In this document: piece by piece, positions 7,737 through 24,429 of the stretch
Position numbering within the stretch: position 1 is the first letter of the stretch
Layout: every line of letters begins with the position of its first letter
Source of the DNA: a virus
IMG/VR virus record: IMGVR_UViG_3300006869_000099
Location: 1 to 24,996 of that record
Strand: one strand, 5' to 3'
Length of the DNA: 24,996 nucleotides
Notes under the pieces: generated by a model
Told to the model about the DNA's origin: nothing
The model's input: only the letters and a program-made list of their open reading frames with translations
Database searches by the model: none
Made by a program: the position numbers and the translations under genes

Positions 7737-7744
7737 TATTTATA
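7737..7744 (-). promoter_or_regulatory. T4-type late promoter box TATAAATA for gene 32
   Basis: A perfect TATAAATA on the minus strand overlaps the downstream edge of the sigma70-like -10 box. Its expected start near 7731 would remove the first bases of the leader hairpin. Confidence 0.7.
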
Positions 7745-8745: not shown

Positions 8746-9508
8746 TTTTAATTCCTAATGCCTCTTTCATTTCGTTATGCATAATCCTTAAATTAGGACT
8801 GTCGATCTCAATGTTCGGGAAATGGTTTTTTCTAAACACCAGATGATCACCCGTAACTTTTTCTTCCAATCTGTTAATACTATGATCAACCTTCAATCCG
8901 TCAATATTAACCGTACTAAGTTTTTCATATGCCACCACTGGCCAAGGATAGTATTCTTCCAACCAAGGGTAGTGCTGCTTGCATATATAAACGTCATTAC
9001 GGGTCAACATTCTGTTACTTTGTTCTACGTCTTGTACAAACTGCGTTGCAGCTTCAGGTTTTATCGCATAAGCATGATGCCCGAAAAAGATATCGTCTCT
9101 TAATGGATGTACTCCTTCTTTCGGTTCTATAAAATTACAATCGTCGGCACGAAAAAAAGAAGGTGCTCCAAAGTTTATACATTTATCGAACTCTAGATCT
9201 TCTGGGATATTCCTGATAAACTGAGCATCATGTTCTAATATCAATATGGGTTCATTCAGTTCTATACACTTTTTCCACAACAAATAATGTGAGGCGAAAC
9301 AACCCGCAATCGGATCTGTTGTTTTCACCAGATTCCACATATATGTATTGGCAGTTTTAGGGAGGTGTTTTCTCCAATCTCTAGCGAACACTCCCCAGAA
9401 AGTTTCTATTTCTGGTTTATACCCAACTTTCCTAGCAGACTCTCTGCAAATTTCTGCTTTCCTCTTTGAAAATTCTATATTTTCCAGAGTTATTATGAAA
9501 CTTCGCAT
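8732..9508 (-). CDS. glycosyltransferase family 25-like
   Basis: The 258-residue protein starts with the FIITLEN strand of GT25 enzymes, followed by a central 'GCFASHYLLWKKCIELNEPILILEHDAQF' region (about 69-97) and a later YYPWPVVAYEK stretch. GT25 enzymes (bacterial LPS beta-galactosyltransferases, collagen galactosyltransferases) have an EDD/DxD-type metal site at the end of that strand; here it is E-H-D (92-94). Unlike its relatives at 12930-20027 it lies in the gp33 operon. The substrate cannot be read from the sequence; a surface glycan or a protein is most likely. The last 14 bases overlap the next gene. Confidence 0.8.
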   Translation of the reverse strand: MRSFIITLENIEFSKRKAEICRESARKVGYKPEIETFWGVFARDWRKHLPKTANTYMWNLVKTTDPIAGCFASHYLLWKKCIELNEPILILEHDAQFIRNIPEDLEFDKCINFGAPSFFRADDCNFIEPKEGVHPLRDDIFFGHHAYAIKPEAATQFVQDVEQSNRMLTRNDVYICKQHYPWLEEYYPWPVVAYEKLSTVNIDGLKVDHSINRLEEKVTGDHLVFRKNHFPNIEIDSPNLRIMHNEMKEALGIKNGKS

Positions 9509-10071: not shown

Positions 10072-10342
10072 TGTCAACTCTCCCGTTGTATTCAGTTAGG
10101 TTTCGCCAGTCAAACTCTATCCAGCGTTTGGCATCAACATCCCAAACCTGATAAAAATTTTCGTCGTCTGAAGGATCTGGTTTATATGCTTCAGGGTCAA
10201 ACTTCACCAGTGTTATGTTGACCTCAACTTCTTCTTTATTTTCGTCAAGGTATTTTAAGTTGACTATGCCGTTATACAACTGCCTCCCGAACACATTGAG
10301 AGGCGGTCTAGAATATGCTAATGGTTTTAATGGAGTTTTCAT
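10055..10342 (-). CDS. small beta-rich protein, possibly WYL_2/SH3-like (DUF2693)
   Basis: The 95-residue protein has a beta-strand pattern (GIVNLKYLDENKEEVEVNITLVKF) and then FYQVWDVDAKRWIEFDWRNLTEY. The 'VWDxxxxxWxxFxxxxL' ending after a polar linker is typical of the short WYL_2-type Sm/SH3-like proteins common in T4-like phages, whose function is unknown. The ATG overlaps the stop of the wall hydrolase gene (ATGA). The assignment is tentative. Confidence 0.65.
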   Translation of the reverse strand: MKTPLKPLAYSRPPLNVFGRQLYNGIVNLKYLDENKEEVEVNITLVKFDPEAYKPDPSDDENFYQVWDVDAKRWIEFDWRNLTEYNGRVDNAKRS

Positions 10343-10866
10343 TTGTAGAATATGTGATCATCAATCACGCTCGTTTTATTAAGTGAATTTGCCCAATACG
10401 GAGTCACATAATCTGCATGATACCACAGAGCACCGTCAGTGAAGTCAGTCCAATATGGCGATGCTTGTGCCTCAAGTATTGTTTGTGCTAAACGCAATGA
10501 CTCTTCCCAAGTAACGCTGTCAACTGGCGTATCAGATTTGCCATCACAGTACCAACTAAACTGGCACTTGTGGCGTAACGGCACTTCGCGACCGTTGGCG
10601 AGGTGCCACTTACTTAACTTTGCTTGGTAGATGACTTCGCATACTGAATTAGGGAAATTATCGTTTAATACGCGATTAAATACAACTTGCGAAACAGCAA
10701 TCTTGCCTGCGATTGACTGATTACCTGCTTCGAAATACATATTTTGAGCGAGGCAGAACCTCGCACCATCTCGATCAGAAGCAAGTGTAGGTGGTGACCA
10801 AACAGCAAGTATTATTATCAGGAAAATAAAAAGTGCTGTGAAATATTTTGGCGTGGGGTCTTCCAT
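10339..10866 (-). CDS. exported cell wall hydrolase, SleB/CwlJ-like
   Basis: From the ATG at 10866 (AAGGAG seven bases upstream) the product has 175 residues. Residues 1-30 form a signal peptide or signal anchor: a short polar start, a core of about 16 hydrophobic residues (ALFIFLIIILAVW) and a likely cut near PTLAS. The Hydrolase_2 domain follows with CLAQNMYFEAGNQSIAGKIAVSQVVFNRV, FPNSVCEVIY, CQFSWYCDGKSD and GALWYHADYV. E46 is the expected catalytic acid. Family members cleave peptidoglycan. Export by Sec would put it in the periplasm, unlike the leaderless T4-type lysozyme at 21666-22112. A role in lysis, wall remodelling or exclusion of later phages is possible. Confidence 0.87.
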   Translation of the reverse strand: MEDPTPKYFTALFIFLIIILAVWSPPTLASDRDGARFCLAQNMYFEAGNQSIAGKIAVSQVVFNRVLNDNFPNSVCEVIYQAKLSKWHLANGREVPLRHKCQFSWYCDGKSDTPVDSVTWEESLRLAQTILEAQASPYWTDFTDGALWYHADYVTPYWANSLNKTSVIDDHIFYK

Positions 10867-10867
10867 C

Positions 10868-11068
10868 TTACCACTCCTTGAAATTTTGGATGTTTTCATT
10901 TTCCTCATAACCTAGGAAATACTCGCGTATTTCTGCTTCGGTCATATCTGCTTCAAGCACTTCGGGACTGTTGTAAGTATCACCTTTGAAGTAGTGAGGG
11001 CGAGGACCACGCTGATAATAAGAGTCAGCGGAACCACGATCGTACGGACTACCATGTCTCTTGTTCAT
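10868..11068 (-). CDS. small phage protein, function unknown
   Basis: The 66-residue product starts MNKRHGSPYDRGSADSYY, followed by RGPRPHYFKGDTY, and ends with an acidic helix (TEAEIREYFLGYEE). The 'SPYDRGSADSYYxR...PHYF' start is shared by small proteins of many unrelated phages. A faint likeness to ribosome modulation factor (a basic start, then a 'xGY' helix) is not enough to name it. The ATG overlaps the upstream stop (TAATG) and the gene is followed directly by the hydrolase, whose ribosome site lies inside its last codons. Confidence 0.7.
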   Translation of the reverse strand: MNKRHGSPYDRGSADSYYQRGPRPHYFKGDTYNSPEVLEADMTEAEIREYFLGYEENENIQNFKEW

Positions 11069-11659: not shown

Positions 11660-12289
11660 TTAGACTTTCGTCCGGAACTCCATATTATCAAATATCTGGA
11701 TCTTGGCGTTCGGATGTTTATGGTATAGGATAAATTTGATGTCTGAGAACTCTTTAAAAATGTTCAACCAAATAGGTCGCCAGATATCAAGGAGACGGAA
11801 ATTGTTGCCTCCGCTTCGATCACTGCTCAAAACCGTATCGGTGTACGATCTCATGTTGTGATCAAATATCGAGTCGAACCCATACATATGAATCTCATCG
11901 GGTTTGTGCCTTCTCGCAGCATAGTGTGCCGCCATATGCCCGCAATTAAAATTAGTTGCCGCCTGCATGGGATCTGGTCCACAGTATTTAGGTACATCGG
12001 TGTAGAACTCTCGGATGTGCCCAGAATGCTTCATAAAGAATCCTGGATTTTGGTCGCACCAAATTTTTGGTCGATTACCCAAAACCCAATAATAACGATC
12101 TAGGTTGACAGAACCTTCTCCCAGAGCTGCCATCATTTTAAAATCAACCATCACCGTAGCATACACATTATGCACCTCAAAAGGTGGTTGATTACAAATT
12201 AAAAGTTTTCCGTCGCGATCATAACGCCACTTCTCTGGCATCATCTGCGACATGTCGCCATTACCGAGTATATGAATTTTCTTAGTCAT
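11660..12289 (-). CDS. DUF115/MAF-like or GT42-like Rossmann protein
   Basis: The 209-residue protein starts with KIHILGNGDMSQMM, a nucleotide-binding type loop. It then has LLICNQPPF, YATVMVDFKMMAAL, an 'NFNCGHMAAHYAARRH' helix, EIHMYGFDSIFD and a C-terminal ILYHKHP. The set 'hhGNGxS - CN - YGFD' is typical of DUF115/MAF-like and sialyltransferase-like proteins that act on glycans. It ends the long operon and overlaps the upstream glycosyltransferase by four bases. The context supports a part in making or adding a sugar. I cannot separate the two families by eye. Confidence 0.6.
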   Translation of the reverse strand: MTKKIHILGNGDMSQMMPEKWRYDRDGKLLICNQPPFEVHNVYATVMVDFKMMAALGEGSVNLDRYYWVLGNRPKIWCDQNPGFFMKHSGHIREFYTDVPKYCGPDPMQAATNFNCGHMAAHYAARRHKPDEIHMYGFDSIFDHNMRSYTDTVLSSDRSGGNNFRLLDIWRPIWLNIFKEFSDIKFILYHKHPNAKIQIFDNMEFRTKV

Positions 12290-12933
12290 AGTCCCATTTG
12301 CTTTTTAATTTCAAGTTTGCCTTTCTGCCCTGTCCAATGCATGATAATTGGATTCGGTGGCGCCACATTATCTATTAAGTCAATACGAAGCACGTTAAAC
12401 TTATGCGGTGCCTCTGAAATATGTATAGTCTTTTTCATTATGTCGCCGCCCATCATAGAGTGCAGTGCTTCTTGATCTCCAACGTGCCTACCAGTTTTAC
12501 ATTCTTTGTACCAGTCATGTAGTATCGCTGGACTGTTTTGAAACGCAACAACTCCAGAGTTATACCAGTGACCCAACTCTGGTCGACGTGTACTCCAAGG
12601 GTGATCGATGACCATTGTAAGTTTGTTTGGTTCGACCCAATTAAAAATACTAGAAGGATCTGCGCGAACCTCGCAATCTGTATCTAACCAACAATAACTT
12701 CCTGAATACATAGTTTGCAATTTTATCATTGCTTCAACTTTTGTAAACCAACCGTCTGACTTGCACTTCATGACTTCGACTGAGCAATCTTTAGCGAACT
12801 CAGTCATCTGTGCTGACATACCGAAGTCAGCAATTACTAGATCCTCATCGCAATGACGATGAAAGTTTTGGACAAACCAAGGCAACTGCCACTCGGTATT
12901 ATTATCACAACCTGTCAGAAAATATTTTCTCAT
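12286..12933 (-). CDS. GT-A-type glycosyltransferase (DTD motif)
   Basis: The 215-residue protein has YFLTGCDNN at the start, a DFG...EFAKD region, 'GWFTKVEAMIKLQTMYSGSYCWLDTDCEV' with a DTD metal/nucleotide-sugar motif (84-86), 'HWYNSGVVAFQNS' and a late MHWTGQKG. These are the steps of a GT8/GT32-like fold: DxD, 'NSGV' and a His near the end. The final H-W-T-G stands where GT8-like enzymes have a His that helps bind metal. The donor and acceptor are unknown. Both ends overlap neighbours by four bases. Confidence 0.72.
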   Translation of the reverse strand: MRKYFLTGCDNNTEWQLPWFVQNFHRHCDEDLVIADFGMSAQMTEFAKDCSVEVMKCKSDGWFTKVEAMIKLQTMYSGSYCWLDTDCEVRADPSSIFNWVEPNKLTMVIDHPWSTRRPELGHWYNSGVVAFQNSPAILHDWYKECKTGRHVGDQEALHSMMGGDIMKKTIHISEAPHKFNVLRIDLIDNVAPPNPIIMHWTGQKGKLEIKKQMGL

Positions 12934-13586
12934 AGAATTTTATAACTCTTTTGGTTTTTCTGATAGTTGTGTTTAGCAAGGCAACCTGTCTCAGTTTGTA
13001 TGCTGGTGAAACTATCTCTCGCCTCAACTGGCCATGGGTAATACTCTTTGACAAACTCAAAGTGCTTATTACATAGGTACAGATCAGTGGGGCATGCCAG
13101 AGCAGAAGCACGGCGAATCATTATATCCGCAGCATCAGGAGAAACTCCATACGCATGGGCACCAGGAAGGTATTCTTTAGAGCACAAACGATTTACACCT
13201 AATGTCGGTGGCGTACGAAATTGCCCATAACTTGGCGCACCGTAGGAAAGAACACCCTGTACTGGTATATTAGGGATAGGATCAACAAAGTATGCGTCGT
13301 GTTCAAGCACGACCAGAGACTTTTTTTCTTTAAAACATTTTTTCCACAACCGATAATGCGAAGTGAAAGCAGCAATGCAATTATCAAAGCGAGAGTAAAC
13401 TTCTTCAAAGTCTACAGTGCTGACACCTTCTTCGAGTAGATATTGAGCAGGATCATCTGCTGGGGTAGTGGCGGGAAACATCTCTACCTCAAACCCTACT
13501 CGCTCAGCGGATTTAATGCAACGCTCTGCTGACTCTACGGACTCGGGCAGGTCCATTATAGTGATCACATAACCTTTCATCATCAT
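12930..13586 (-). CDS. glycosyltransferase family 25-like
   Basis: The 218-residue product has GYVITIMDLPESVESAERC at the start, 'IAAFTSHYRLWKKCFKEKKSLVVLEHDAYF' (about 71-100) with E-H-D at 95-97, and YYPWPVEAR near the end. It is close in layout to the enzymes at 8732 and 13583. Three ATG codons in a row (ATGATGATG) begin it, overlapping the TGA of the gene before, so the exact start may be any of the three. The donor and acceptor are unknown. Confidence 0.78.
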   Translation of the reverse strand: MMMKGYVITIMDLPESVESAERCIKSAERVGFEVEMFPATTPADDPAQYLLEEGVSTVDFEEVYSRFDNCIAAFTSHYRLWKKCFKEKKSLVVLEHDAYFVDPIPNIPVQGVLSYGAPSYGQFRTPPTLGVNRLCSKEYLPGAHAYGVSPDAADIMIRRASALACPTDLYLCNKHFEFVKEYYPWPVEARDSFTSIQTETGCLAKHNYQKNQKSYKIL

Positions 13587-14311
13587 ATATCCGTTGTAGT
13601 TGAGATTCCTTCCTCGATATTAGTGTAGTATGGATATGCCACTTTTAAATCCATAGGAAATAATTGGCGACACATAATCGCATCGTTTGGCCACATACCA
13701 ACACGTTTCACTTCTTGCAGCAACTTTTTAGCGAACGCAGGTTTTATTGCGTACGCACTGTTGCCAGCAAGTCCCATCGGTAAAGGAGGATCAGTCGGTT
13801 CGTCGATGATGGGTACTCGGTGAATGCCTTCCCCACACGATGCGACTAAATCATGGAACCTACGTCCCTTGCGAGTGTTACCTCTCGGGTCATTCAACCC
13901 AACTGCACCCCAATTTACATCATCGAAATTTGACTTGTCAAACTCTCGAATGAATCTTGCGTCGTGTTCAAGTATGACGATTGGTTCGTCTAACTCAACA
14001 CATTTTTTCCATAAGCGAAAATGACTCAGCGCACATGCTATAACTCGTTTCTGATCTTTCGCTTCGTACATCCTTTTGTAGAGTCCAGTAGAGAAGTCCA
14101 GACCTTCACCGCTGTGCGAAGTCGGCCAAGTCCAATCTACATCCCTACCGAAACATTCTACGGTATCATCGTATATAGTGTCTGGAACGGTTGCGCGAAA
14201 CGTGCTAGTGTCCCTAATCTCAGTGTATTGCGCAACTGTAGCGATACCGCGCACTGCTCTTGCTACAGAGTCGGGGTCGTCCAGTATAGTGATGACAAAT
14301 AATTTATTCAT
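13583..14311 (-). CDS. glycosyltransferase family 25-like
   Basis: The 242-residue protein starts KLFVITILDDPDSVARA and holds 'ACALSHFRLWKKCVELDEPIVILEHDARF' (about 92-120) with E-H-D at 115-117. The C-terminal part has 'GNSAYAIKPAFAKKLLQEV', the usual GT25 acceptor-side helix, and AYPYYTNIEEG. It carries an insertion at about 35-80 that the neighbouring GT25 copies lack. Four-base overlaps link it to both neighbours. Confidence 0.78.
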   Translation of the reverse strand: MNKLFVITILDDPDSVARAVRGIATVAQYTEIRDTSTFRATVPDTIYDDTVECFGRDVDWTWPTSHSGEGLDFSTGLYKRMYEAKDQKRVIACALSHFRLWKKCVELDEPIVILEHDARFIREFDKSNFDDVNWGAVGLNDPRGNTRKGRRFHDLVASCGEGIHRVPIIDEPTDPPLPMGLAGNSAYAIKPAFAKKLLQEVKRVGMWPNDAIMCRQLFPMDLKVAYPYYTNIEEGISTTTDI

Positions 14312-14802
14312 TTTTTCCTGAGTGCAACCAAACTATGCGCTTCCTCTACCACTTCATACCAGTCCAGTATCCTATTATACCTTTCTCTTTTTGGATTGTC
14401 AAGCGGACCCCAATCATGCACGAAAACAACAGAATCTTTTGTTATATTGTCAAGTATAGATTTTGCGCACCATTGCCTAGCACGTCCATCAATCAATACT
14501 ACATCCCATATTTCTTTTTGACTTTTCGGCCAATCAATATATTCTTTATATTCCTTGTATGTCGCTGGTTTAACCTTCTTACAAGGTATGAAAACTAATT
14601 TTACATGCGGCAACTTTTTTACTTGCTCGTTAACTTTATTGAACCATCTGCGATTGTACTCTAATGAGGTCAACTTCCTCACCCTTTCTGAGTAGTATAG
14701 TGTACTGTTGCCCGAACCATACTCCAACATATTAACATCTTTGTTGAGATATTTTTCTATAAGTTCTATCTCATTATCTTGCATCAAAGGTTTATTTTGC
14801 AT
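14308..14802 (-). CDS. class I SAM methyltransferase-like protein
   Basis: In this 164-residue protein 'VNMLEYGSGNSTLYYSERV' (about 23-41) is a methyltransferase motif I with the 'E-x-G-x-G-x-S' loop. SLEYNRRWFNKV follows with the acidic residue that would hold the ribose, and 'WDVVLIDGRARQWC' and VVFVHDWG follow as motifs for strands 4 and 5. The short C-terminus ends in LVALRKK. It is small for a free-standing methyltransferase. The substrate is probably a sugar or glycan, given its place between two GT25 genes. Confidence 0.7.
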   Translation of the reverse strand: MQNKPLMQDNEIELIEKYLNKDVNMLEYGSGNSTLYYSERVRKLTSLEYNRRWFNKVNEQVKKLPHVKLVFIPCKKVKPATYKEYKEYIDWPKSQKEIWDVVLIDGRARQWCAKSILDNITKDSVVFVHDWGPLDNPKRERYNRILDWYEVVEEAHSLVALRKK

Positions 14803-15475
14803 TAGAAGTGCCTAGATTAACCTTGTTATATTTGCAAACTGACGGTGCATAATATTGCATTTTGACATTATGAGAATTAATTATGTAGTCTGACTGCTCC
14901 AATCCATAATTTTGTACAGCAGCAATTAACTTTCTGGCGCCCGATGGTGTAATCACATAAGCAGCGGTTCCTGGTGTTAATTGCGCACCGTTGTACATAC
15001 ACATGCGGTGGTGTGTAAGTGGATAATCTTTAGGAAAATCTCTGATCTCGTGCGCGAGGGCAGGTTCAGGACGCCAACGAAACTTACCCGCCAAGGCACC
15101 CCAATCGAAAGCATAGTCCATACTCAAAAAACAAAAGTCTTTCGTACGATTAAGCAAAGCGAAATCGGGTGTAGAGCAAGCAATGACGTCGTGCTCGAAA
15201 AATGCCATTGGTTCGTCCTTCTGAATAACTTCGTTCCAGAAAGAAATATTATTCATGACGCATGCTTTTTTAGTGAAGAACTTTTTGCCTTCAAAGCAAC
15301 TCAGACGACCGTTGGGTAGAATATTAAATGCGTGTTTACCCGACTGTACAGTCTCCGCTGTATACCCAGGAGTCAACTGCACTTCCCAACCAAACTTACT
15401 TAAAGATGATTCCGCTTCTTCCGCTTGCTTGATCGAAGCATCATGATTTTTAAGGTAGATTATTCTCCCTTTCAC
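14792..15475 (-). CDS. divergent glycosyltransferase family 25-like
   Basis: The 227-residue protein begins KGRIIYLKNHDASIKQAEE and has 'CVMNNISFWNEVIQKDEPMAFFEHDVIA' (about 72-99) with E-H-D at 94-96. 'GTAAYVITPSGARKLIAAV' is the usual GT25 C-terminal helix. It is more distant from the other copies: the S-H-x-x-L-W motif is N-I-S-F-W here. It overlaps the methyltransferase gene downstream by 11 bases and the unknown gene upstream by 26 bases. Confidence 0.72.
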   Translation of the reverse strand: MKGRIIYLKNHDASIKQAEEAESSLSKFGWEVQLTPGYTAETVQSGKHAFNILPNGRLSCFEGKKFFTKKACVMNNISFWNEVIQKDEPMAFFEHDVIACSTPDFALLNRTKDFCFLSMDYAFDWGALAGKFRWRPEPALAHEIRDFPKDYPLTHHRMCMYNGAQLTPGTAAYVITPSGARKLIAAVQNYGLEQSDYIINSHNVKMQYYAPSVCKYNKVNLGTSNAK

Positions 15476-15803
15476 TGCGCACCCTCAACTTTTCTTTAAT
15501 AACAGTGTCTCGTTCTTTTTCCCACCAATCATCATCATAGTTATTTTTATATTGGCGCAGTTTAGCGTCCATCTTCTTTGCCATTTGGTATGCCTCTTCT
15601 AGCATATCTAAAACAGCATCGTAGTGTTCGCTCTCTTTTAAATCTTCAAACAGGATATCATAGATCTCACGGTGTACTTCGCAAATAGTTCTACCGAACT
15701 TTGGATTGTAGTGAGCATTACTGATACTGCCACTGCCTTTTTTATTTGCTTCTTTATCTACATTACTGAAATTAAAAAATGGATTATCGTCCCAATCTTT
15801 CAT
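15450..15803 (-). CDS. helical protein, function unknown
   Basis: The 117-residue product starts MKDWDDNPFFNFSN and is followed by a long helical, charged stretch (EVHREIYDILFEDLKE, then VLDMLEEAYQMAKKMDAKLRQYKNNY). The end, rich in Glu, Lys and Arg, is probably helical too. No motif is recognised. It overlaps the methyltransferase upstream (ATGA) and shares 26 bases with the GT25 gene downstream. A scaffold or regulatory role in the cassette is possible, but nothing in the sequence proves it. Confidence 0.6.
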   Translation of the reverse strand: MKDWDDNPFFNFSNVDKEANKKGSGSISNAHYNPKFGRTICEVHREIYDILFEDLKESEHYDAVLDMLEEAYQMAKKMDAKLRQYKNNYDDDWWEKERDTVIKEKLRVRSERENNLP

Positions 15804-16408
15804 AGTCGTACCACCACTTGATTATTCCCGTATTTCTCTAGAGTCAAAAAATTGTCGCTCGCCCATTTATTAACTGCTTTCTTGACTCCACCTTTATCTC
15901 CGTCACGACCCCACTTATAGTCATCGCCGATGATAACACCACCAGTCTTGACAACTTTTAATGCATTACAAAAATCGCTGTATGCTCCAGTGTATGAATG
16001 GTCACCGTCAATATAGATCCAATCTAAAAACGGTGCGTCGAATTGGTCAAACCAATCGGTTGAATTCATACGGCAAATTTCTACGTTAGGCAATTTGCCA
16101 TATTCTTTATTAACTTTTTCTGCAATATCGTCATAGTATTTGGTGAAAGTGACTTTATCAGCGCCACCTGTAATTTTAGAATACTTGTTATAGTAAGTTT
16201 CCTCACTAAAAGTTTCATCACCTGCCTCAATAGCAGGTTGGTATCCAGTAACTGCCCAAGGATCTACCAAATACAGTTTCTTGGGGTTGCGTTTAATAAA
16301 CTGCTTGGAAGAACTTCCCATCCAAACGCCGATCTCAGCACCCACCGAACCTTCTTTTACAAAGTGCATGATATTGTGCGAATCGTCGTTATCAGTTAAT
16401 GCCATCAT
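15800..16408 (-). CDS. class I SAM methyltransferase (Methyltransf_24-like)
   Basis: The 202-residue protein has 'GSVGAEIGVWMGSSSKQF' (motif I, about 20-37), LYLVDPWA (motif II acid), LDWIYIDGDHSYTGAYSDF (motif of strand 4 with the D-x-D-H pattern) and VVKTGGVIIGDDYKW. These are hallmarks of the Methyltransf_24 family, found in sugar O-methyltransferases and some antibiotic pathways. The D-G-D-H set could hold a metal ion. The likely target is a sugar hydroxyl in the same glycan. Both ends overlap neighbours by four bases. Confidence 0.82.
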   Translation of the reverse strand: MMALTDNDDSHNIMHFVKEGSVGAEIGVWMGSSSKQFIKRNPKKLYLVDPWAVTGYQPAIEAGDETFSEETYYNKYSKITGGADKVTFTKYYDDIAEKVNKEYGKLPNVEICRMNSTDWFDQFDAPFLDWIYIDGDHSYTGAYSDFCNALKVVKTGGVIIGDDYKWGRDGDKGGVKKAVNKWASDNFLTLEKYGNNQVVVRL

Positions 16409-17121
16409 AATTTTTCTGCCCAGTAATTTTTGGTGGGACCTGTGTCGAAATCATATCCCCAAGTATCTATATCATCCTTGTACCAATCGGCAACGATTTG
16501 TATTGTCTTATCGTTGTACATATCCATGTACGTGCCTTCGTTCAACCCTGTGACGTTCCTCGCGCGATCCATTTTCAATATACCGAAATATTTCTCGAGG
16601 TCGCTATTTAAATTCTCAAATCTAATTATATCGCAACGAATATTGCCTTCCGAATCGCTGACATGTTCTTTAGCAGGAAACCATCCTCGTATAGCACGAT
16701 GCCACATGTACTCTACGTTGCCCCACTCGTGCCGTTCTTCTAGGAAATCCTCAAACGAATCCAACTTAAATTTTCCGACAGGGTCTTTACCTTCTACGAA
16801 CGTAGTCTTGCGCGCGAAGAAATATCTGGATACCACTCTGTCCCATGGGTTACGAATCACAGCGAAAGAATCCATTGTGTTTCTAAGCGAAGGGTGAATA
16901 TCGCGCCAACGACAGTGACCAACACCGATCTGGGCGCGAGTAGGATTGGGACCAGTCTTTTCTACCTTTATCATGTGCTGAACAAGACCGTCATAGTATT
17001 CCTTGTTCTTTAGATCTTCAACTGAGTCCACGTGATGAATGCGGTTCTCTAAATTAGGACTGCGTCTAATCGTCATACCCGCACACTTTGGGATATGCAC
17101 AAATATTTTTTTATCTATCAT
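16405..17121 (-). CDS. sulfotransferase (Sulfotransfer_2-like)
   Basis: From the ATG at 17121 the product has 238 residues. 'KIFVHIPKCAGMTI' is the 5'-phosphosulfate loop and 'FAVIRNPWDRVVSRYFF' the 3'-phosphate loop of PAPS-dependent sulfotransferases (HNK-1/heparan type). The family moves sulfate from PAPS to a sugar hydroxyl or amine. The ATG at 17121 is chosen because it gives a 4-base ATGA overlap with the upstream stop; an ATG two codons earlier (17127) is possible. It implies a sulfated glycan, with PAPS supplied by the host. The call is firm, the acceptor unknown. Confidence 0.85.
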   Translation of the reverse strand: MIDKKIFVHIPKCAGMTIRRSPNLENRIHHVDSVEDLKNKEYYDGLVQHMIKVEKTGPNPTRAQIGVGHCRWRDIHPSLRNTMDSFAVIRNPWDRVVSRYFFARKTTFVEGKDPVGKFKLDSFEDFLEERHEWGNVEYMWHRAIRGWFPAKEHVSDSEGNIRCDIIRFENLNSDLEKYFGILKMDRARNVTGLNEGTYMDMYNDKTIQIVADWYKDDIDTWGYDFDTGPTKNYWAEKL

Positions 17122-17849
17122 CCACATAATATGTGATGCTTAGGTTCCCAACCAAATTCCTTTAATACGGAAGGGTCGGCGCAAGTAATCGTTCGTTCGC
17201 CAGTTACTTTGCGGATTGGCAAATTGTTATCTGGCCAAACTTTATCTGCGAGTTGTTTAACTGTCACAGGATCACCAGTGCCGACATCTATTGCGACAAG
17301 GTGTTTCATGTCTTGAAAATTTTGTATACAAACGTCTATAGCACTGCAAACATCTTCAACATGAGTCCAATCTCTGACGTGATCAGTAATATACTCGACT
17401 TCGCGCTTTAGCAACTTATCGTATAGCATATCGGTACGACTGTTTGGACCATACACTGTGTGGAATCTTAGACCGAGCGCATCGGGTGGCGCGATACATT
17501 CCATAAACCATTTGGTACTGGCGTATGGCGACAACCACCACTCATATATCGAAGAAGAGGAAGCATAGATAATTGGAATACGTGCTTCTTCACACTGCTT
17601 GAATATTAATTGTGATGCTTTTACATTGACGTCCCAGTATTCTGTAGGGATCTCGTGCGAACGACGAACACCTGCGAGTGCCGCAAGATGCACGACCATG
17701 TCGTAGTCAAACGCACTCAGTTTCATATCAAAGTTTCGGATGTCACCATCATATTCAAAAATGTCATACTTGTCTTTGTATAACTTTAGGAAATTGTTCC
17801 CGATGAATCCTGGGCGATAACCTCTTGTGCCAGTCAATAATATATTCAT
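17118..17849 (-). CDS. NAD(P)-dependent epimerase/dehydratase (extended SDR)
   Basis: The 243-residue protein starts with MNILLTGTRGYRPGFIG, a variant of the G-x-x-G-x-x-G dinucleotide loop. D34 begins the acidic strand end. VVHLAALAGV, YASSSSIYEW and the catalytic pair Y109-x3-K113 (SPYASTKW) follow, then LRFHTVYGPN and the DWTHVEDV segment of sugar epimerases. Such enzymes convert nucleotide sugars (for example UDP-glucose/galactose). It is short for the class (usually 300 or more), lacking part of the C-terminal domain, yet is intact in frame. It probably supplies a special nucleotide sugar to the transferases. Confidence 0.88.
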   Translation of the reverse strand: MNILLTGTRGYRPGFIGNNFLKLYKDKYDIFEYDGDIRNFDMKLSAFDYDMVVHLAALAGVRRSHEIPTEYWDVNVKASQLIFKQCEEARIPIIYASSSSIYEWWLSPYASTKWFMECIAPPDALGLRFHTVYGPNSRTDMLYDKLLKREVEYITDHVRDWTHVEDVCSAIDVCIQNFQDMKHLVAIDVGTGDPVTVKQLADKVWPDNNLPIRKVTGERTITCADPSVLKEFGWEPKHHILCG

Positions 17850-18643
17850 ATTTGTTCCATCAACTTTTCAACGTTCTCGCCCTTTTCTGGCATCTTATCT
17901 TTTAAGTGAAAATGGACAAACTCGCATTTTTTTATGTTGTCTCCCCAAAAGCAACCAAAGAGTCCGTTATATTTCCAGTCAAGATACTTAGTCGGGATAC
18001 CCTCTTTCTTCAACCAATAGTTGAGTAGAGTTTGATCAGTCGACCACTTGTAATACCCGACTCCGTCTACCATATCTTGAAACTCAGGACGTTCTAAAAA
18101 CTGGCGAGGAGTTTGCCCTTTGAGGTATGGTTTCATCGCCCGAGTGTTTATCAGCATCAAACCCATATTAAAAAATTCTAGACCGCATGCATCATGGTAT
18201 CGCCAACCCTTTATCCTATTAGAGACATGACCATACTGCATATGCGAATATTCTTTAAGTTTTACCATGTGTTGAGCATTAGAGGGCATATCGCATTCAG
18301 CAACACCACCGAACGCGAATGTAGGTTCTATCTCTTCAAATATGTTAGAAGCATCGGGGCGGATGTACATATCTGCGTCAAGAATAAGAATTTGATCATA
18401 GTCATCTATCAACTCAAACGCATTCTCTTTTTCAAAGATAGGCAGGTATCCTAGTTCTTTCCAACCGCCACACTTACCTTCTCGTTGCGTACGGAAAACA
18501 TCAGGAACAATGCGTAGTTTAGGTTGAGTTTGTAAAATATGCTCTGCGCCAATTTTTTCAGCGTATTGCTTGACTGATTCTATGCAGTGATCGTACAGTC
18601 TAGACTTCTTACCGACATAAACTTGATAAATTAATCTTTTCAT
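17846..18643 (-). CDS. GT8-like glycosyltransferase (copy A of a tandem pair)
   Basis: The 265-residue protein opens MKRLIYQVYVGKKSRLYDHC and has the D-A-D motif (89-91) in 'YDQILILDADMYI', a 'FFNMGLMLIN' segment and STDQTLLNYW, which stand in the order found in GT8-like enzymes. The C-terminus has HFHLKDKMP, where the His would complete the metal site. It is clearly related along its whole length to the next gene (both have IYQV, VKxYAxKIGA, TQPKL, KEN, WKxN-LFG). A duplicated gene with separate donor or acceptor choice is the simplest reading. Confidence 0.78.
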   Translation of the reverse strand: MKRLIYQVYVGKKSRLYDHCIESVKQYAEKIGAEHILQTQPKLRIVPDVFRTQREGKCGGWKELGYLPIFEKENAFELIDDYDQILILDADMYIRPDASNIFEEIEPTFAFGGVAECDMPSNAQHMVKLKEYSHMQYGHVSNRIKGWRYHDACGLEFFNMGLMLINTRAMKPYLKGQTPRQFLERPEFQDMVDGVGYYKWSTDQTLLNYWLKKEGIPTKYLDWKYNGLFGCFWGDNIKKCEFVHFHLKDKMPEKGENVEKLMEQI

Positions 18644-19443
18644 ATTGTAGCAATCGCCCCTGCTAATTCATCAATGTTCTCACCGTTATTCGGTAACTTA
18701 TGGCGCATGAAGAAGTGGACAAAATGCGCCTCAGCGATCTTTCCCTGTTGTAGTGCACCAAACAATGCGTTAAACTTCCAATCTACATGCTGAATACTTA
18801 GGTCGTCTTTTCTTGCCCAATAATTCAAAGTGATCTGATCGGTCTGCCAACGGAAAGCACCGATGCCGTCAATAAAATCGCGGAAGTAAGAACGTTGCAT
18901 AAACTGCTTTGGCGTGGTGTTACCCAGCACCTCCAACATCTTTTTACAGTTATACACAATCATCCCAGAGTTAAAGAACTCGCCGCCATGGGGGTGATCA
19001 AAATCCCAGTCAAACTGTTTACATACTGAGTTTGTCAACTGCTCGCGCGAGTACTTGTTAATCTGCTGGGAGTATCTTTGGTTTACTGGTAGTTCGCGCT
19101 CAAATTGAGCAGCGAAGTGATAATCGGTACTGATGTCAGCGAATACATCGGGTGCATCAGGTTTGATAAAAATATCTGCGTCGATAACCGCAACTTGATC
19201 GAAATCTTTAAAGTATTCAAAGACGTTCTCCTTTTCAAATATCGGTAAGAACCCGCCATACTTTTCGTATGACTCTTTACTACGTTGCCCTGTAAACGGA
19301 TCAGGTTTGATCCATAACTTTGGTTGAGTTTGTACAATGTGGTCTGCGCCGATTTTATCAGCATATTCTTTGACGCTCGCCACGCAGTATTTGTACAACT
19401 TAGACTGTGGTCCAACTGCTACTTGATAAATTGCTCGCTTCAT
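18640..19443 (-). CDS. GT8-like glycosyltransferase (copy B of a tandem pair)
   Basis: The 267-residue product is a full-length paralogue of the 17846 gene. It begins MKRAIYQVAVGPQSKLYKYC, holds D-A-D at 88-90 in VAVIDADIFI, then FFNSGMIVYN, TDQITLNYW and WKFNALFG, and ends with a HFFMRHKLPNNGEN segment. Copy B is a little longer at the C-terminus (LAGAIATI). The overlap with both neighbours is four bases. The mismatch in the middle (loop at 50-65) may set substrate choice. Confidence 0.78.
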   Translation of the reverse strand: MKRAIYQVAVGPQSKLYKYCVASVKEYADKIGADHIVQTQPKLWIKPDPFTGQRSKESYEKYGGFLPIFEKENVFEYFKDFDQVAVIDADIFIKPDAPDVFADISTDYHFAAQFERELPVNQRYSQQINKYSREQLTNSVCKQFDWDFDHPHGGEFFNSGMIVYNCKKMLEVLGNTTPKQFMQRSYFRDFIDGIGAFRWQTDQITLNYWARKDDLSIQHVDWKFNALFGALQQGKIAEAHFVHFFMRHKLPNNGENIDELAGAIATI

Positions 19444-20027
19444 GTGTTATGTTCCGCAGATGTACCAACGTCATAGTTTACTACCTGAAAGCAAGATGCA
19501 AACTGCAAGTGGTAATCATTGAAATCCTTCTCTTTAGTTTTTAACATTATCTTTGCAGTCTTATGTAGGTGTCCATCAACGTTCTCATCTATGGGTTTAG
19601 AAATTGCCCAATCGCGAAGTATACTGGCGCCTGTCCTATTAACATAGTATCCGGATCCTGGAGAGACTACTTCTCTCTTACCTTGCCATGCATTGTCGTT
19701 GCGAGGAAACGTGGAAAAGAATCCTATAGGATCTTTAAATTTAGGAAGTTCTTTATACGGATACGTGTCGTGCTCAATAATACACGTTGGTTCTGTAACT
19801 TGCTTCCATAAATTGTAATGACTATACCATATCGCTTTTTCAATTGGTGTAAACTTGTTGCCATTGAACTTACATTCTGCGAAAGGTAATTCGTCACCAA
19901 GAGTATCAGGTACGATTCCTTCTTTCTTAGTTATATTGTACCCTAATTTTCGCCATCTGTCAAGACATATTTTAGAATAATAATCAGACTTCTGATCGCC
20001 AGAAACGACGATCATCCAGATGTTCAT
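19440..20027 (-). CDS. short GT25-like glycosyltransferase
   Basis: The 195-residue protein starts MNIWMIVVSGDQKSDYYSKIC and has 'IEKAIWYSHYNLWKQVTEPTCIIEHDTYP' (about 62-90) with E-H-D at 85-87. 'GSGYYVNRTGASILRDW' is the C-terminal helix. It is about 30-60 residues shorter than the other copies and lacks the final 'YYPWP' part. The S-H-x-x-L-W and E-H-D features make it a diverged GT25 member. It comes directly after the carbamoyltransferase. Confidence 0.7.
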   Translation of the reverse strand: MNIWMIVVSGDQKSDYYSKICLDRWRKLGYNITKKEGIVPDTLGDELPFAECKFNGNKFTPIEKAIWYSHYNLWKQVTEPTCIIEHDTYPYKELPKFKDPIGFFSTFPRNDNAWQGKREVVSPGSGYYVNRTGASILRDWAISKPIDENVDGHLHKTAKIMLKTKEKDFNDYHLQFASCFQVVNYDVGTSAEHNT

Positions 20028-21649
20028 GAAGTGAAGACTTTAACATTATACATATCTTCGAACGCAGTTGCTTGATCCCTATTGTTAACCATAGGTTTGC
20101 CTCTGATATTCAAAGAAGTGTTTAGTAGCATAGGCACGCCAGTGCGATCGTAATAGCACTCGAGTATCTTACGCAGTGCAGATTGAGAGTCTTTGTGTAC
20201 TAACTGTACTCGACCAGAACCATCTACGTGAGTCACCGACCCATAGTCGTGTTTCGCCTGAGCACTAAATTGCATCCACCGATTGGTGTAACCTTCAAAG
20301 TAATCGTCGACGTGCTCCTCTAGAATCGCAGGAGCGAAAGGTCTGTAGAGTTGCCTCTGTTTAATATTATTGACAGTATCCTTTACATCATATCTCACGT
20401 CGCCGAGCAGAGAGCGATTGCCATATGCTCTATAAGAAAATTCTGCGGGTCCGTTCGCAACACCACAAACTTTTTTCTTTAGCAGGTAATCAACAACCAT
20501 CTCTGGGTCTAACCAACCTTCAATCTCATATCCAAGGTATGGGTGTTCCCAATTGATCCTATCAGCGCCAGTTTCTTTCATGTAGAAATAAGCAGCTGCA
20601 CCAAGAGATCCGCCACCGTCTCCTGGGTTCACATCGATCCAGACATCATCGAATAGTTCTCGGATCCGATTATTTGCCATAATATTTTGAGCAACACCGC
20701 CACTGTAGCAAAGTTTGTTTCCGTACTTTCTTGCTTTGGCAGCAAATTCATATATGACTTCTTCCGTCATCCTTTGCAGTGAGGCAGCAGCATCTTTTTC
20801 GTTTTTGGTTTCGCGCAACAGGAAATCAATAATTTTTGATAGGAATAATGTTTTTATCCTGTATTTTTCTTGCCAAGGGACATTCTCAAACCCATCTTGA
20901 TCTTCCAAAGTCCAAGAGGGAACGCACTTATACATCTCAAATGCTTTTTCCCAATGAGTTGGTTCGCCATAGCAAGATAAACCCATGACAACATATTCGT
21001 CATCATTAGATCTCAATCCTGGCATTTTATCGGTAAAATTGGCGTACAAGTAACCAACTGATCTGGGGAAATTAGTTTCTTCTACTAGTTCTAAATCGTG
21101 GTTATAAGTTGCCGAAGATCTCATCTCGCCGACACCATCGATCACTAGCATCACACATTCTTCTTTCGCGAAACTTTTTGGTCTAGTTGCAAAAGCAGCT
21201 GACGCATGCGCGCGATGATGCTCGCATGCTGTTACTATATCACCCCTCTCCGCTGGGTGTTGACCCCACCACTTCCTATTAGGTCGTTTTCCCATTTTGC
21301 GCGCAAGGGCGAGTTCGTATTGTAACTCACTATTTTTTTCATGATGTTCGGGAAGTTCGCTCCAAGGGAGATCTTCTTTCCCGCGCAGTTCAGAAAAAGC
21401 ATCAGCTGAAGGAGTAAGGAAGTCGGTTCTAAATTTTAATCTGTATGCCCAATCATCATTGGTGTATAAACTGGTATTTGGATATCTGGTCGACCATTCC
21501 TTCAGAAATTCTTTAGACATGACTGCATCATGTTTCTTACCAGAAAATCTTTCATACATACTAGCAAATTTTATATCACCGTTTTCATCGATGATTGTAA
21601 TACCAGCATCATGGAGCATCTCGCCCCCAACACCCATATAATGTTTCAT
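20024..21649 (-). CDS. O-carbamoyltransferase (NodU/TobZ/CmcH family)
   Basis: The 541-residue protein has both domains of the family. The Kae1-like N-terminal domain contains EHHRAHASAAF (143-153, with H144 and H148 for metal), DGVGE (171-175), and 'LCYSGGVAQNIMANNRI' with 'GDGGGSLGAAA' further on. The YrdC-like C-terminal domain contains 'GPAEFSYRAYGNRSLLGD' (400-417) and 'RQLYRPFAPAILEEH'. Family members use carbamoyl phosphate and ATP to carbamoylate a hydroxyl on a sugar or antibiotic. Length fits the full enzyme. It leads the glycan genes of the operon. The target is probably a sugar; a modified base cannot be ruled out. Confidence 0.92.
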   Translation of the reverse strand: MKHYMGVGGEMLHDAGITIIDENGDIKFASMYERFSGKKHDAVMSKEFLKEWSTRYPNTSLYTNDDWAYRLKFRTDFLTPSADAFSELRGKEDLPWSELPEHHEKNSELQYELALARKMGKRPNRKWWGQHPAERGDIVTACEHHRAHASAAFATRPKSFAKEECVMLVIDGVGEMRSSATYNHDLELVEETNFPRSVGYLYANFTDKMPGLRSNDDEYVVMGLSCYGEPTHWEKAFEMYKCVPSWTLEDQDGFENVPWQEKYRIKTLFLSKIIDFLLRETKNEKDAAASLQRMTEEVIYEFAAKARKYGNKLCYSGGVAQNIMANNRIRELFDDVWIDVNPGDGGGSLGAAAYFYMKETGADRINWEHPYLGYEIEGWLDPEMVVDYLLKKKVCGVANGPAEFSYRAYGNRSLLGDVRYDVKDTVNNIKQRQLYRPFAPAILEEHVDDYFEGYTNRWMQFSAQAKHDYGSVTHVDGSGRVQLVHKDSQSALRKILECYYDRTGVPMLLNTSLNIRGKPMVNNRDQATAFEDMYNVKVFTS

Positions 21650-21665: not shown

Positions 21666-22112
21666 TTAGACGTTTTCCATTCTAGTCATGAGTCGCTCTG
21701 CTCGGTTTGTTACCTGACGATACCAAAGACTGTCGCGTCCTTCGATCGCCGCAGTTTTCCAGTCGCCTTCTAGGATCGCGGCATTAAACTTCTTAAACTT
21801 ACTTAGTCGTGTACGACCCATGTTGAACATCATATTAACCAAGATTTGCTGGACTTCGTCTGGTAAGTTGTCAAATGTCCCTCTTTCGTATAAAGCGTGA
21901 CACTCTCCGATGGCAAGTTCAAGGTCTGCTTCAAAACACTCCTTAACTCTTTCTTCCGAGACTCGAGTACCAACTGCCCTTCCGTGCTCTTCGTCACTTT
22001 CGAGGATAAGGTGACCAACTCCAAACGTGGGGTAACCGAGGTGATCGTTGTATATGACATACTCAACTCCTTCGTCGATCTTGAGTTGTTCGTAAACTGC
22101 TTGTCTGTTCAT
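21666..22112 (-). CDS. e: T4-type lysozyme (GH24 muramidase)
   Basis: The 148-residue protein aligns by eye with T4 lysozyme. 'LKIDEGVEYVIYNDHLGYPTFGVGH' has catalytic E14, D23 and T29 (T4 Glu11, Asp20, Thr26), 'VNMMFNMGRTRLSKFKKFN' matches the T4 helix, and 'SLWYRQVTNRAERLMTRM' matches RWYNQTPNRAKRVITTF. The enzyme cuts the glycan chain of peptidoglycan after holin release. No signal peptide is present. It is slightly shorter than T4 gpe (164). It lies between PhoH and the carbamoyltransferase behind an early-type promoter, not in the late block. Wholly intact. Confidence 0.92.
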   Translation of the reverse strand: MNRQAVYEQLKIDEGVEYVIYNDHLGYPTFGVGHLILESDEEHGRAVGTRVSEERVKECFEADLELAIGECHALYERGTFDNLPDEVQQILVNMMFNMGRTRLSKFKKFNAAILEGDWKTAAIEGRDSLWYRQVTNRAERLMTRMENV

Positions 22113-22819
22113 TTTTTGCTCCTAGCAAGCATCTCTTTTGTCATGATATAATCTCTAACAAAATCAGAACGAATGATGTCTTCCCAACCAAATTCAATTA
22201 TTGAAAAATTTTTCATTACTTCTATTATAGATAGGAACGATTGAATGCCATTCCTATCAGATTCTTTCGTAAAATCCGACTGATAAAAATCTCCCGCAAA
22301 AATTATGCGAGAGTCCAGTCCGACCCTTGTAATCACTGAGTCCAGTTCATGGAACGTCAGATTCTGCATCTCATCTACAATGATGATAGCATTATCAAAG
22401 GTCGTACCTCTTATATAGGAAGTTGAGTAGAACTCAATAATACGTTGGTCTACTAACTGTTGATAACTTCCACCGAAATTAAATAAGTCGTCGCATATCC
22501 CAATGTAGGGTTGTATGAACGGTGCAAGTTTTTCGTCAGCGGTTCCTGGGAGGAAACCCATGTCGCGAGTAGCAACTACTGAGCGAACGAGGATCACCTT
22601 TTCCCAAGGAGTACTTTTATCTAGTACATCTTGCAACGCTAGATATAATGCAGTGAAGGTTTTGCCCGTTCCCGCACTGCCATTGAGTACAAGATTATGC
22701 CCGTCCTTCCACTCTTCCCATGCTACTTGCTGGTTATTGGTTAACGGATCGAATGTGCAAAGATTATCTATACGAATTTTAAAGTTAGACTCTTGCCGAT
22801 GTCTTTTAGTTTGAGTCAT
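22109..22819 (-). CDS. phoH: PhoH-like ATPase
   Basis: The 236-residue protein has a Walker A motif GSAGTGKT (47-54), then 'VILVRSVVATRDMGFLPGTADEKLAPF' (75-101), a signature of PhoH, and a Walker B IIIVDEMQN (146-152). 'RIIFAGDFYQSDF' (171-183) holds the sensor-like part. The family is an ATPase and predicted RNA/DNA helicase-like domain. It is common in marine phages and linked by context to phosphate stress or RNA handling, with no settled phage role. The ATG overlaps the stop of the FmdB-like gene (ATGA). It is next to the operon's promoter. Confidence 0.93.
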   Translation of the reverse strand: MTQTKRHRQESNFKIRIDNLCTFDPLTNNQQVAWEEWKDGHNLVLNGSAGTGKTFTALYLALQDVLDKSTPWEKVILVRSVVATRDMGFLPGTADEKLAPFIQPYIGICDDLFNFGGSYQQLVDQRIIEFYSTSYIRGTTFDNAIIIVDEMQNLTFHELDSVITRVGLDSRIIFAGDFYQSDFTKESDRNGIQSFLSIIEVMKNFSIIEFGWEDIIRSDFVRDYIMTKEMLARSKK

Positions 22820-23049
22820 ACCTTGATAGTATTGCCGCGACCTGAGTTATTCTTAATGTTTTTGAGAAGATCTTTATACCCATCAGGTGCTTTTGATAAG
22901 GTTCCTCCAGCGTGAGTGATCAGACTAGCAGAAGAAGTTTTGTGTAAAATTTGCCACTCTCCGGATTTTACATTTTCTTCCATAGTGGAGATAGAACAAA
23001 AAACTTCTTTTTCTTCTCCCTCTTTAGTCTTAACATCATATGTTGGCAT
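22816..23049 (-). CDS. FmdB-like small protein, zinc-free
   Basis: From the ATG at 23049 the product has 77 residues: MPTYDVKTKEGEEKEVFCSIS, a middle EENVKSGEWQIL part and 'SKAPDGYKDLLKNIKNNSG' at the end. This is the T4-like phage version of the FmdB family (MPTY..., '...GY.DLLK.IKK..PG'), usually next to phoH. Cellular FmdB proteins hold a zinc ribbon; here only one Cys is present, so no ribbon can form. A longer reading from 23100 starts before the promoter-derived mRNA and is rejected. The AGGA of the leader is 11 bases before the ATG. Confidence 0.8.
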   Translation of the reverse strand: MPTYDVKTKEGEEKEVFCSISTMEENVKSGEWQILHKTSSASLITHAGGTLSKAPDGYKDLLKNIKNNSGRGNTIKV

Positions 23050-23080
23050 AGTATTCAGTTTCCTGGGCAGCGATAGCTTT

Positions 23081-23109
23081 ATTATAGTGAATTTATACAA
23101 AAAGTAAAG
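23081..23109 (-). promoter_or_regulatory. early-type sigma70-like promoter of the long accessory operon
   Basis: CTTTAC (23104-23109) and TATAAT (23081-23086) lie 17 bases apart on the minus strand. CTTTAC is one base from the T4 early -35 (GTTTAC) and the -10 is perfect. The expected start is near 23074. It follows a terminator directly, so it begins a new unit: FmdB-like, phoH, lysozyme and the glycan cassette. A nearby TATAAATT (23091-23098) could also serve as a degenerate late box. Confidence 0.78.
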
Positions 23110-23111
23110 AG

Positions 23112-23142
23112 AAAAATAAACAATGCCCCACCGGAGTGGGGC
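23112..23142 (-). terminator. intrinsic terminator after the 57-residue gene
   Basis: On the minus strand GCCCCAC-TCCG-GTGGGGC makes a perfect 7-bp GC stem with a 4-base loop (23125-23142), followed by a T-rich run (ATTGTTTATTTTTCTC). It lies 20 bases past the stop of the upstream small gene. Confidence 0.9.
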
Positions 23143-23162
23143 ACGAGATAGATCACCTTCCT

Positions 23163-23893: not shown

Positions 23894-24304
23894 TCACTTG
23901 TTCACACTCAGGTGTTTTCTTGAGATTCTACAATTAATTATACCATTGTAATAGTCGTCTCTCAGCAACACTTCGCGGTCAAACTGTTCTTTAGTTTCAT
24001 AGTATGCGCAGTCTCCCTTCGTCTTGCAGAGGTGCAATATCTCACGGGTAAAGGCATCTAACCCCTTTGACTCTACTAACTCCTGCACGCGCTCTGAGGA
24101 ACCACAGTAAGTCCTCCAGTCGCTTTCCACGAGAGTTTTCTTTCGCCGTTTGCGAGTCTTGGTGATAGGGAGAGTTTTGGTTCGGTAGAAGAACTTCTTA
24201 CCGACATATTTCATCTGGGTTTCTTTTTCTGTTATTATGTAAACAAACCCATAATAATCTTCAGGCAATGTATCGTATACCTCGCCGTTATAAGTCCAAG
24301 TCAT
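23894..24304 (-). CDS. GIY-YIG-type nuclease-like protein
   Basis: From the ATG at 24304 the product has 136 residues. 'YYGFVYIITEKETQMKYVGKKFFYRT' (17-41) is a variant of the GIY-x-YIG start ('FVYIIT...KYVGKK'). ESDWRTYCGSSERVQELV, 'FTREILHLCKTKGDCAYYETKEQF' and LLRDDYYNGIINCRI follow with the Arg and Glu expected for the family. Many T4-like phages carry free-standing GIY-YIG enzymes (the Seg family) that cut DNA. A further 9-residue upstream extension exists but overlaps the zinc-ribbon gene. The start overlaps that gene's stop (TAATG). The nuclease fold is likely; a homing role is not shown. Confidence 0.72.
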   Translation of the reverse strand: MTWTYNGEVYDTLPEDYYGFVYIITEKETQMKYVGKKFFYRTKTLPITKTRKRRKKTLVESDWRTYCGSSERVQELVESKGLDAFTREILHLCKTKGDCAYYETKEQFDREVLLRDDYYNGIINCRISRKHLSVNK

Positions 24305-24429
24305 TAGTCGACTTCTATAGGTGCAGCGCACATAGGACAGAAGGCAGGAATCTCGTCAACATCATGTACAATAAGTTCGCATTCAGTTTCGCAAACCTCA
24401 CATGTTATGTAAAAAGTTTCGTCTTCCAT
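24304..24429 (-). CDS. 41-residue zinc ribbon protein
   Basis: A frame from an ATG at 24429 to a TAA at 24304 encodes MEDETFYITCEVCETECELI, then VHDVDEIPAFCPMCAAPIEVD. Two knuckles, C-x2-C (with another Cys nearby) and C-x2-C, about 20 residues apart, make a standard four-Cys zinc ribbon. Both ends overlap neighbours by TAATG, so it is translated as part of the operon. It may bind nucleic acid or a protein; nothing more can be read. Confidence 0.8.
   Translation of the reverse strand: MEDETFYITCEVCETECELIVHDVDEIPAFCPMCAAPIEVD

Follow-up and report, generated by a model that had tools for sequence, protein, structure and literature searches.

The IMG/VR virus record IMGVR_UViG_3300006869_000099 was analysed over its entire 24,996 bases (the window), with a focus on an operon for glycan-modifying enzymes that occupies positions 11660-21649. 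The window is a fragment of its phage genome. Judged from its gene content, which includes a baseplate tube cap, hub, tail tube, DNA end protector and single-stranded DNA-binding protein (ssb), it belongs to an uncultured marine T4-like phage, and the nearest complete record found was Phage C48C1 (OQ984149, Kyanoviridae), with an ssb identity of 57-64%. The operon, placed between PhoH/lysozyme and u167/CWH, consists of 14 minus-strand open reading frames (ORFs), none of them interrupted. All 13 junctions overlap, 10 by 4 nucleotides and the others by 10, 11 and 26 nucleotides, confirming an earlier note on this DNA that had described 14 consecutive genes linked mostly by 4-base overlaps. The order of transcription is CARB, GT25a, GT8a, GT8b, EPIM, SULF, MTa, hel117, GT25b, MTb, GT25c, GT25d, DTD and DUF115 (GT, glycosyltransferase). 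The transcription unit exceeds these 14 genes, as u94, PhoH and LYS precede CARB.

Table 1. Features of the window and the evidence for their assignment (aa, amino acids; E, expectation value).
Feature	Position	Strand	Description	Evidence or occurrence
Late boxes TATAAATA	980-987, 4360-4367, 6444-6451, 7737-7744	-	gaps directly 5' of tail, gp2 or ssb genes
TnsA-like gene	992-1495	+	TnsA-like endonuclease fold	PF08722 E 1e-15
GT25e	8732-9508	-	fifth GT25, outside cassette	Pfam E 2e-14
SleB-type gene	10339-10908	-	SleB-type hydrolase, N-terminal hydrophobic segment
DUF115	11660-12289	-	DUF115-like protein, 209 aa, distal frame gene	model with GT42/sialyltransferase fold; in 69/69 cassettes
DTD	12286-12933	-	GT-A-like transferase, WLDTDC motif, distal frame gene	PF03407 E 0.001 (below cutoff); in 66/69 cassettes
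GT25d	12930-13586	-	GT25 glycosyltransferase, distal frame gene	Pfam E 2e-7; in 68/69 cassettes
GT25c	13583-14311	-	GT25 glycosyltransferase, distal frame gene	Pfam E 4e-13; in 64/69 cassettes
MTb	14308-14802	-	methyltransferase-like, variable middle	weak Pfam E 0.056
GT25b	14792-15475	-	GT25 glycosyltransferase, variable middle	Pfam E 9e-10
hel117	15450-15803	-	small charged helical protein, 117 aa, variable middle	73% identity in L015
MTa	15800-16408	-	S-adenosylmethionine (SAM) methyltransferase (Methyltransf_24), variable middle	Pfam E 2e-15
SULF	16405-17127	-	3'-phosphoadenosine 5'-phosphosulfate (PAPS)-dependent sulfotransferase	PF03567 E 4e-8
EPIM	17118-17849	-	nicotinamide adenine dinucleotide-dependent nucleotide-sugar epimerase, 243 aa, YASTK	PF01370 E 3e-18; phrog_540 E 3e-40
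GT8b	17846-18643	-	paralogue of GT8a (44% identical)	sequence comparison
GT8a	18640-19443	-	GT8-like GT-A glycosyltransferase, DAD motif, proximal frame gene	alignments and predicted model
GT25a	19440-20027	-	weak GT25-like glycosyltransferase, 195 aa, IEHD motif	PF01755 E 0.05
CARB	20024-21649	-	O-carbamoyltransferase (NodU/CmcH/TobZ/GdmN family), 541 aa	PF16861 E 7e-40; PF02543 E 3e-32
LYS	21666-22112	-	phage lysozyme, 16-bp gap to CARB	PF00959
PhoH	22109-22819	-	PhoH	PF02562
u94	22816-23100	-	first gene of unit	listed start TTG
Promoter	23081-23108	-	sigma70-like, TTTACT-16-TATAAT	conserved in L009, L013, L016
Terminator	23123-23144	-	strong intrinsic terminator just upstream of promoter	conserved in L009, L013, L016
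SegE-like gene	23894-24331	-	SegE-like GIY-YIG endonuclease	PF19835 E 5e-35
SULF2	24429-24995	-	possible second sulfotransferase, outside cassette	PF13469 E 0.06 (below cutoff)

The locus turned out to be one member of a widespread type with a constant frame and a swappable middle. Alignment-based searches of viral contigs gave 356 relatives of DUF115, 231 of SULF and at least 541 of GT8; after removal of redundancy the genes were clustered, and the clusters were labelled by BLAST and label propagation. GT8 lies upstream of DUF115 in 69 non-redundant uncultured loci (L numbers), which share the frame GT8 - variable middle - GT25c - GT25d - DTD - DUF115, with 56 different gene orders in the middle. 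The middles contain methyltransferases, the sulfotransferase, other GTs and epimerases, in some phages also nucleotidyltransferases, and radical-SAM genes occur in some middles as well as upstream of GT8. Because the loci had been fetched via the frame genes, the arrangement was checked again starting from SULF, an anchor independent of them: 22 of 23 loci have the full distal quartet downstream of SULF, and 52 of 54 have GT8 upstream of it. GT8 was less constant in DUF115-anchored loci (10/25), and it is missing from 14 DUF115 loci that extend more than 8.5 kb upstream, so that the idea of GT8 as a universal frame gene was dropped. The distal quartet GT25c-GT25d-DTD-DUF115 is the firmest unit.

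The divergences of the distal frame genes correlate with one another (r 0.54-0.64) and less strongly with that of SULF (r 0.30-0.36), both ranges being uncorrected for kinship; this difference is expected if the frame travels together and the decorations are exchanged. The identity between the window and locus L009 jumps sharply between genes (GT8a 93%, GT8b 75%, EPIM 95%, MTa 38%), and in sequence terms such jumps between neighbours are a mosaic pattern. The ratio of non-synonymous to synonymous substitutions (dN/dS) against close relatives was about 0.02-0.28 for the cassette genes where measurable, indicating that all testable genes are under purifying selection and that the operon is functional. 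With dozens of independent contigs showing the same genes in the same order, and with dN/dS low, the operon is not a chance array. The outcome that the earlier note had named as refuting its reading, most genes being broken in relatives, was itself refuted. It is a conserved, soluble, selected and modular set of transferases.

The activities named in the earlier note held for CARB, GT25b, GT25c, GT25d, the epimerase, the sulfotransferase and MTa, all with Pfam scores above the cutoff, and were weak or below it for GT25a, both GT8 proteins, DTD and MTb. CARB combines a Kae1-like N-terminal with a YrdC-like C-terminal domain, with PF02543 and PF16861 both far above cutoff. It carries the HHRAH and EF..RA.GNRSLL motifs and aligned over both domains with GdmN, NovN and TobZ from the PDB (E 1e-18 to 1e-40); as a NodU equivalog (NCBIfam NF041651) it scored 111.7 bits, below the cutoff of 1000. 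Against PF01755 (cutoff 24 bits), GT25b (39.2), GT25c (50.1), GT25d (31.8) and GT25e (54.5) all scored above and GT25a (13.9) below, the last having orthologues in L009, L013 and L015. GT25e was not found at the corresponding place in a 151-kb relative (G001). SULF reached 34.2 bits against Sulfotransfer_2 (cutoff 22), and its PAPS motifs IPK.AG.T and RNPWDR.VSRY are retained in all seven aligned sequences. Residues W82, D84, T85 and D86 of DTD are invariant across 33 sequences. MTb has a homologue at another place in G001 (53% identity), and hel117 gave no significant family match, its Pfam match being at chance level. The earlier note had also read the cassette as a near-complete sugar-making pathway. 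This was not borne out, as the window holds a single epimerase and no nucleotidyltransferase or dehydratase, although nucleotidyltransferases occur in the cassettes of some relatives.

Predicted models strengthened the GT8-like and DUF115-like assignments, for which no Pfam cutoff was passed. Against PF01501 the E values of the two GT8 proteins were 0.002 and 0.011, and their scores of 15.7 and 18.0 bits lay below the cutoff of 24.3, so that they are named GT8-like only. The GT8 model (predicted local distance difference test, pLDDT, 93) has a GT-A fold and is closest to the capsid glycosyltransferase A064R of chlorovirus PBCV-1 (Z 16.7), followed by UGGT (15.7) and the lipooligosaccharide (LOS) galactosyltransferase LgtC (14.5); the metal-binding aspartates D88 and D90 are invariant in 31 sequences. 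The DUF115-like protein of the window has no Pfam match of its own, and 8 of 33 family members match PF01973 weakly. Its model (pLDDT 93.7) gave nothing significant in a plain Foldseek search of the PDB. With a second aligner Campylobacter CstII (Z 10.8, root mean square deviation 4.1, 180 residues) and other sialyltransferases, including a Pasteurella LOS enzyme, ranked highest together with MptE-type HPPK, against a Z of about 5 for unrelated Rossmann folds. In a sequence-level comparison by hhalign, with a CstII sequence identical to PDB 1ro7, the probability was weak (4.7%) and the GNG and CNQ motifs aligned; at the level of PDB sequence profiles, DUF115 and GT8 had chance-level matches only. 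On the model, the protein has a sialyltransferase-like (GT42-like) fold, a label that replaced "unknown" and with which the weak PF01973 matches agree, and it possibly uses a CMP-activated sugar.

A simple hydropathy test of the 675 genes in the 69 cassettes flagged a single candidate for a transmembrane segment, which lies in an antisense ORF. Flippases, polymerases, transporters and membrane priming enzymes were not found among these genes. None of the 69 cassettes has the make-up of a Wzx/Wzy or ABC-dependent polysaccharide locus. In the absence of membrane machinery, the glycan must form on an acceptor accessible from the cytoplasm.

Relatives in cells were rare. The 348 Pseudomonadota genomes counted, which exclude one that holds a phage contig, had no relatives of DUF115 and two distant ones of GT8, both in the same type of locus with the order GT9-like heptosyltransferase - HldD - GT8 - GT25 - GT9-like. 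One of these was examined in full: its HldD passes the curated cutoff, and with a GT25-like gene and a pair of heptosyltransferase-like genes also flanking GT8, it reads as a lipopolysaccharide (LPS) core locus. Seven contigs in bacterial and archaeal genomes (L253-L259) match the GT8 family alongside other cassette genes. Their metagenome-assembled genomes (MAGs) include Opitutia, Flavobacteriaceae, Balneolaceae, Rhodobacteraceae and Sphingobacteriales. Since these are unrelated, and the contigs carry cassette genes and, if of sufficient length, PhoH or its neighbours, the seven are probably misbinned phage contigs that contaminate public MAGs, and a host assignment from them was rejected. 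Among sequenced phage isolates GT8 had no match and SULF two weak ones, DUF115 matched only C48C1, and DTD only HTVC008M.

The unit probably starts at the sigma70-like promoter near 23100. For u94 the ATG at 23049 is the more probable start codon, given that the listed TTG overlaps this conserved promoter. There are four exact T4 late boxes in the window, upstream of gp54, the tape measure gene, gp2 and ssb; all four being 5' of tail, gp2 or ssb genes suggests T4-type late transcription in the lineage. The late box TATAAATA is absent within 200 bp upstream of GT8 in all 69 loci. An "early-type" operon, as proposed in the earlier note, is thus supported by a conserved non-late promoter and the missing late box, but the label is only partly established, because the operon also holds the lysozyme gene. 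The SleB-type hydrolase and lysozyme genes flank the cassette, and a holin-like gene lies immediately 5' of GT8 in 16 related cassettes.

We hypothesize that the operon is a soluble assembly line that extends and decorates the LPS/LOS core of the host and thereby blocks superinfection, a reading to which we give an even chance. The transferases would operate wholly in the cytoplasm. Their acceptor would be shared by the entire phage lineage and would most likely be the lipid A-core of a gram-negative host. On it the frame enzymes would extend a stem, which the variable enzymes would cap or decorate with extra sugars, methyl and sulfate groups, the carbamoyltransferase sitting upstream of the frame in this phage branch. 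Likely donors are host nucleotide sugars, PAPS, SAM, carbamoyl phosphate with ATP and, for the GT42-like enzyme, possibly CMP-Kdo. The product would be exported by the host MsbA/Lpt system. In early-to-mid infection the receptor glycan would be altered, sibling and rival phages would be unable to adsorb, released virions would no longer stick to debris, and swaps of decorations would track the receptor arms race.

The LPS/LOS core can be reached from the cytoplasm, and the host has the machinery to export it. In favour of this reading are the family assignments, the frame kept in 69 loci around 56 different middles, the lack of membrane proteins, the purifying selection and the modelled folds, with LgtC among the GT8 matches and CstII and the Pasteurella LOS enzyme among those of DUF115. 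The cellular GT8 relatives in an LPS heptose locus and the conserved non-late promoter also speak for it. GT8 genes of pelagimyophages have been interpreted as modifying the O-chain against coinfection (PMC7029224). Several points weigh against the LPS/LOS core. The GT8 and DUF115 families are practically phage-specific, which would fit an acceptor peculiar to the phage, for instance a virion protein, as well. The best structural match of the GT8 model is PBCV-1 A064R, with UGGT and LgtC close, and the unit, since it includes a lysozyme gene, is possibly not early throughout. The enzymes' isoelectric points, examined as a hint of membrane binding, were uninformative. No computed result separates the LPS core from a virion protein as acceptor.

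The main competitor, a virion protein as acceptor, we consider possible but rather unlikely. Here the soluble enzymes would build their glycan, a conserved core carrying variable decorations, on a protein of the capsid or tail while still in the cytoplasm, much as chloroviruses do on their major capsid protein. The solubility of all cassette enzymes agrees with it, as do the near absence of the GT8 and DUF115 families from cells and the A064R match, although the common GT-A fold says nothing on the acceptor. The constant frame with its variable middle also parallels the conserved core of chlorovirus glycans, which is built in the cytoplasm by virus enzymes including a GT/methyltransferase fusion (PMC7826918). 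However, the cassette lies outside the structural genes and without a late promoter box upstream, and the closest cellular GT8 relatives sit in an LPS locus. In its most novel form, this reading has a lineage of uncultured marine T4-like phages carrying a phage-specific modular locus that puts a constant core and swappable methylated, sulfated or carbamoylated decorations on the phage's virion proteins, much as chloroviruses glycosylate their capsid; we regard it as a doubtful proposition. Other host glycoconjugates (capsule, exopolysaccharide, flagellin or another host protein) or a secreted small molecule are distinctly improbable acceptors. Relatives of CARB act on Nod factors and antibiotics, and DUF115/MptE-like folds are related to flagellin glycosyltransferases, but no cassette has lipid-linked repeat-unit machinery, there is no biosynthetic scaffold enzyme, and the frame is kept across a broad phage lineage.

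The earlier note had listed host surface, virion and the phage's own DNA as targets, and the first two remain the right short list. Phages are known to glycosylate their DNA, and the cassette does hold GTs and methyltransferases, yet sugar hypermodification against restriction is highly improbable here. PF00303 (thymidylate synthase/dCMP hydroxymethylase) was not found in the 151-kb relative or in the complete relatives C48C1, HTVC008M and Mosig, no cassette gene matched the T4 alpha- or beta-glucosyltransferase families, and the families that are present (GT25, GT42-like, carbamoyl- and sulfotransferase) are those of glycan enzymes. Dam-like methyltransferase genes are what the 151-kb relative has instead. 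The T4 combination of base hydroxymethylase and DNA glucosyltransferase was not found, the window being a fragment of its genome.

Among known systems, the pelagimyophages of the HTVC008M group are likewise marine and T4-like with many GTs, GT8 being the commonest (PMC7029224). HTVC008M has one sugar cluster with relatives of DTD (34%) and the carbamoyltransferase (28%), and the GT8 and GT42-like families of this cassette were not found in it. In pelagimyophages the island sits within the tail-fibre genes and has been described as non-syntenic (PMC7029224), whereas the present frame is fixed and located downstream of PhoH/lysozyme. Their host recognition cluster is located between VrlC and gp14 with the tail fibres, unlike this cassette, which in the 151-kb relative is at 2-12 kb, far from the long tail-fibre-region genes at about 111-131 kb. 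C48C1 shares CARB (43%), DUF115 (44%) and LYS (69%) with the window, but has no recognisable homologues of GT25c, GT25d, SULF or EPIM between CARB and DUF115 and no full-length GT8. Chlorovirus PBCV-1 (A064R, A111/114R, A075L) resembles the cassette in its soluble virus-encoded GTs and methyltransferase, and its glycans have a conserved core; the GT8 model is closest to domain 1 of A064R. PBCV-1 is, however, a eukaryotic virus with a capsid protein as proven acceptor and without synteny or close sequence similarity to this cassette, and to our knowledge its system includes no carbamoyl- or sulfotransferase. The gtr serotype-conversion cassettes of P22 and Shigella phages also change a surface glycan from a phage genome, but need the membrane proteins GtrA/GtrB, whereas the present cassette type has no transmembrane gene. 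Bacterial O-antigen loci have a similar form of fixed frame and swappable middle, from which this locus differs in having no membrane parts.

Phage genes that modify LPS, and GT8 and carbamoyltransferase genes in marine T4-like phages, are already known. The constant-frame, swappable-middle phage locus appears to be new: the cassette as a unit is absent from the sequenced phage records searched, and a literature search, with most subscription journals outside its coverage, found no description of such a locus. Phage sugar genes are usually listed singly as auxiliary genes, and here they form one organised locus in dozens of uncultured marine phages. If the host surface is altered, this locus would be a diversifying weapon in phage-phage competition; if the virion is altered, phages would bear a chlorovirus-like glycan coat. 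Whichever the acceptor, the purpose of phage glycosyltransferases becomes a defined test on five frame enzymes.

The 151-kb relative, which has one tRNA, contains a second sugar-type cluster (L026:4491-7671; G001 44491-47671) of sulfotransferase-like, radical SAM/SPASM, 2-oxoglutarate oxygenase-like and GT-like genes; relatives of its radical SAM and GT genes lie directly upstream of GT8 in other phages. The TnsA-like gene of the window is oriented opposite to its neighbours. Its product shares 93% identity with the counterpart in the 151-kb relative and 53% with that in C48C1, which bears the annotation head closure, and it may be a protein of head completion that has a nuclease-like fold. 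The SegE-like endonuclease gene behaves as a resident rather than a mobile gene, since its position is kept in most relatives.

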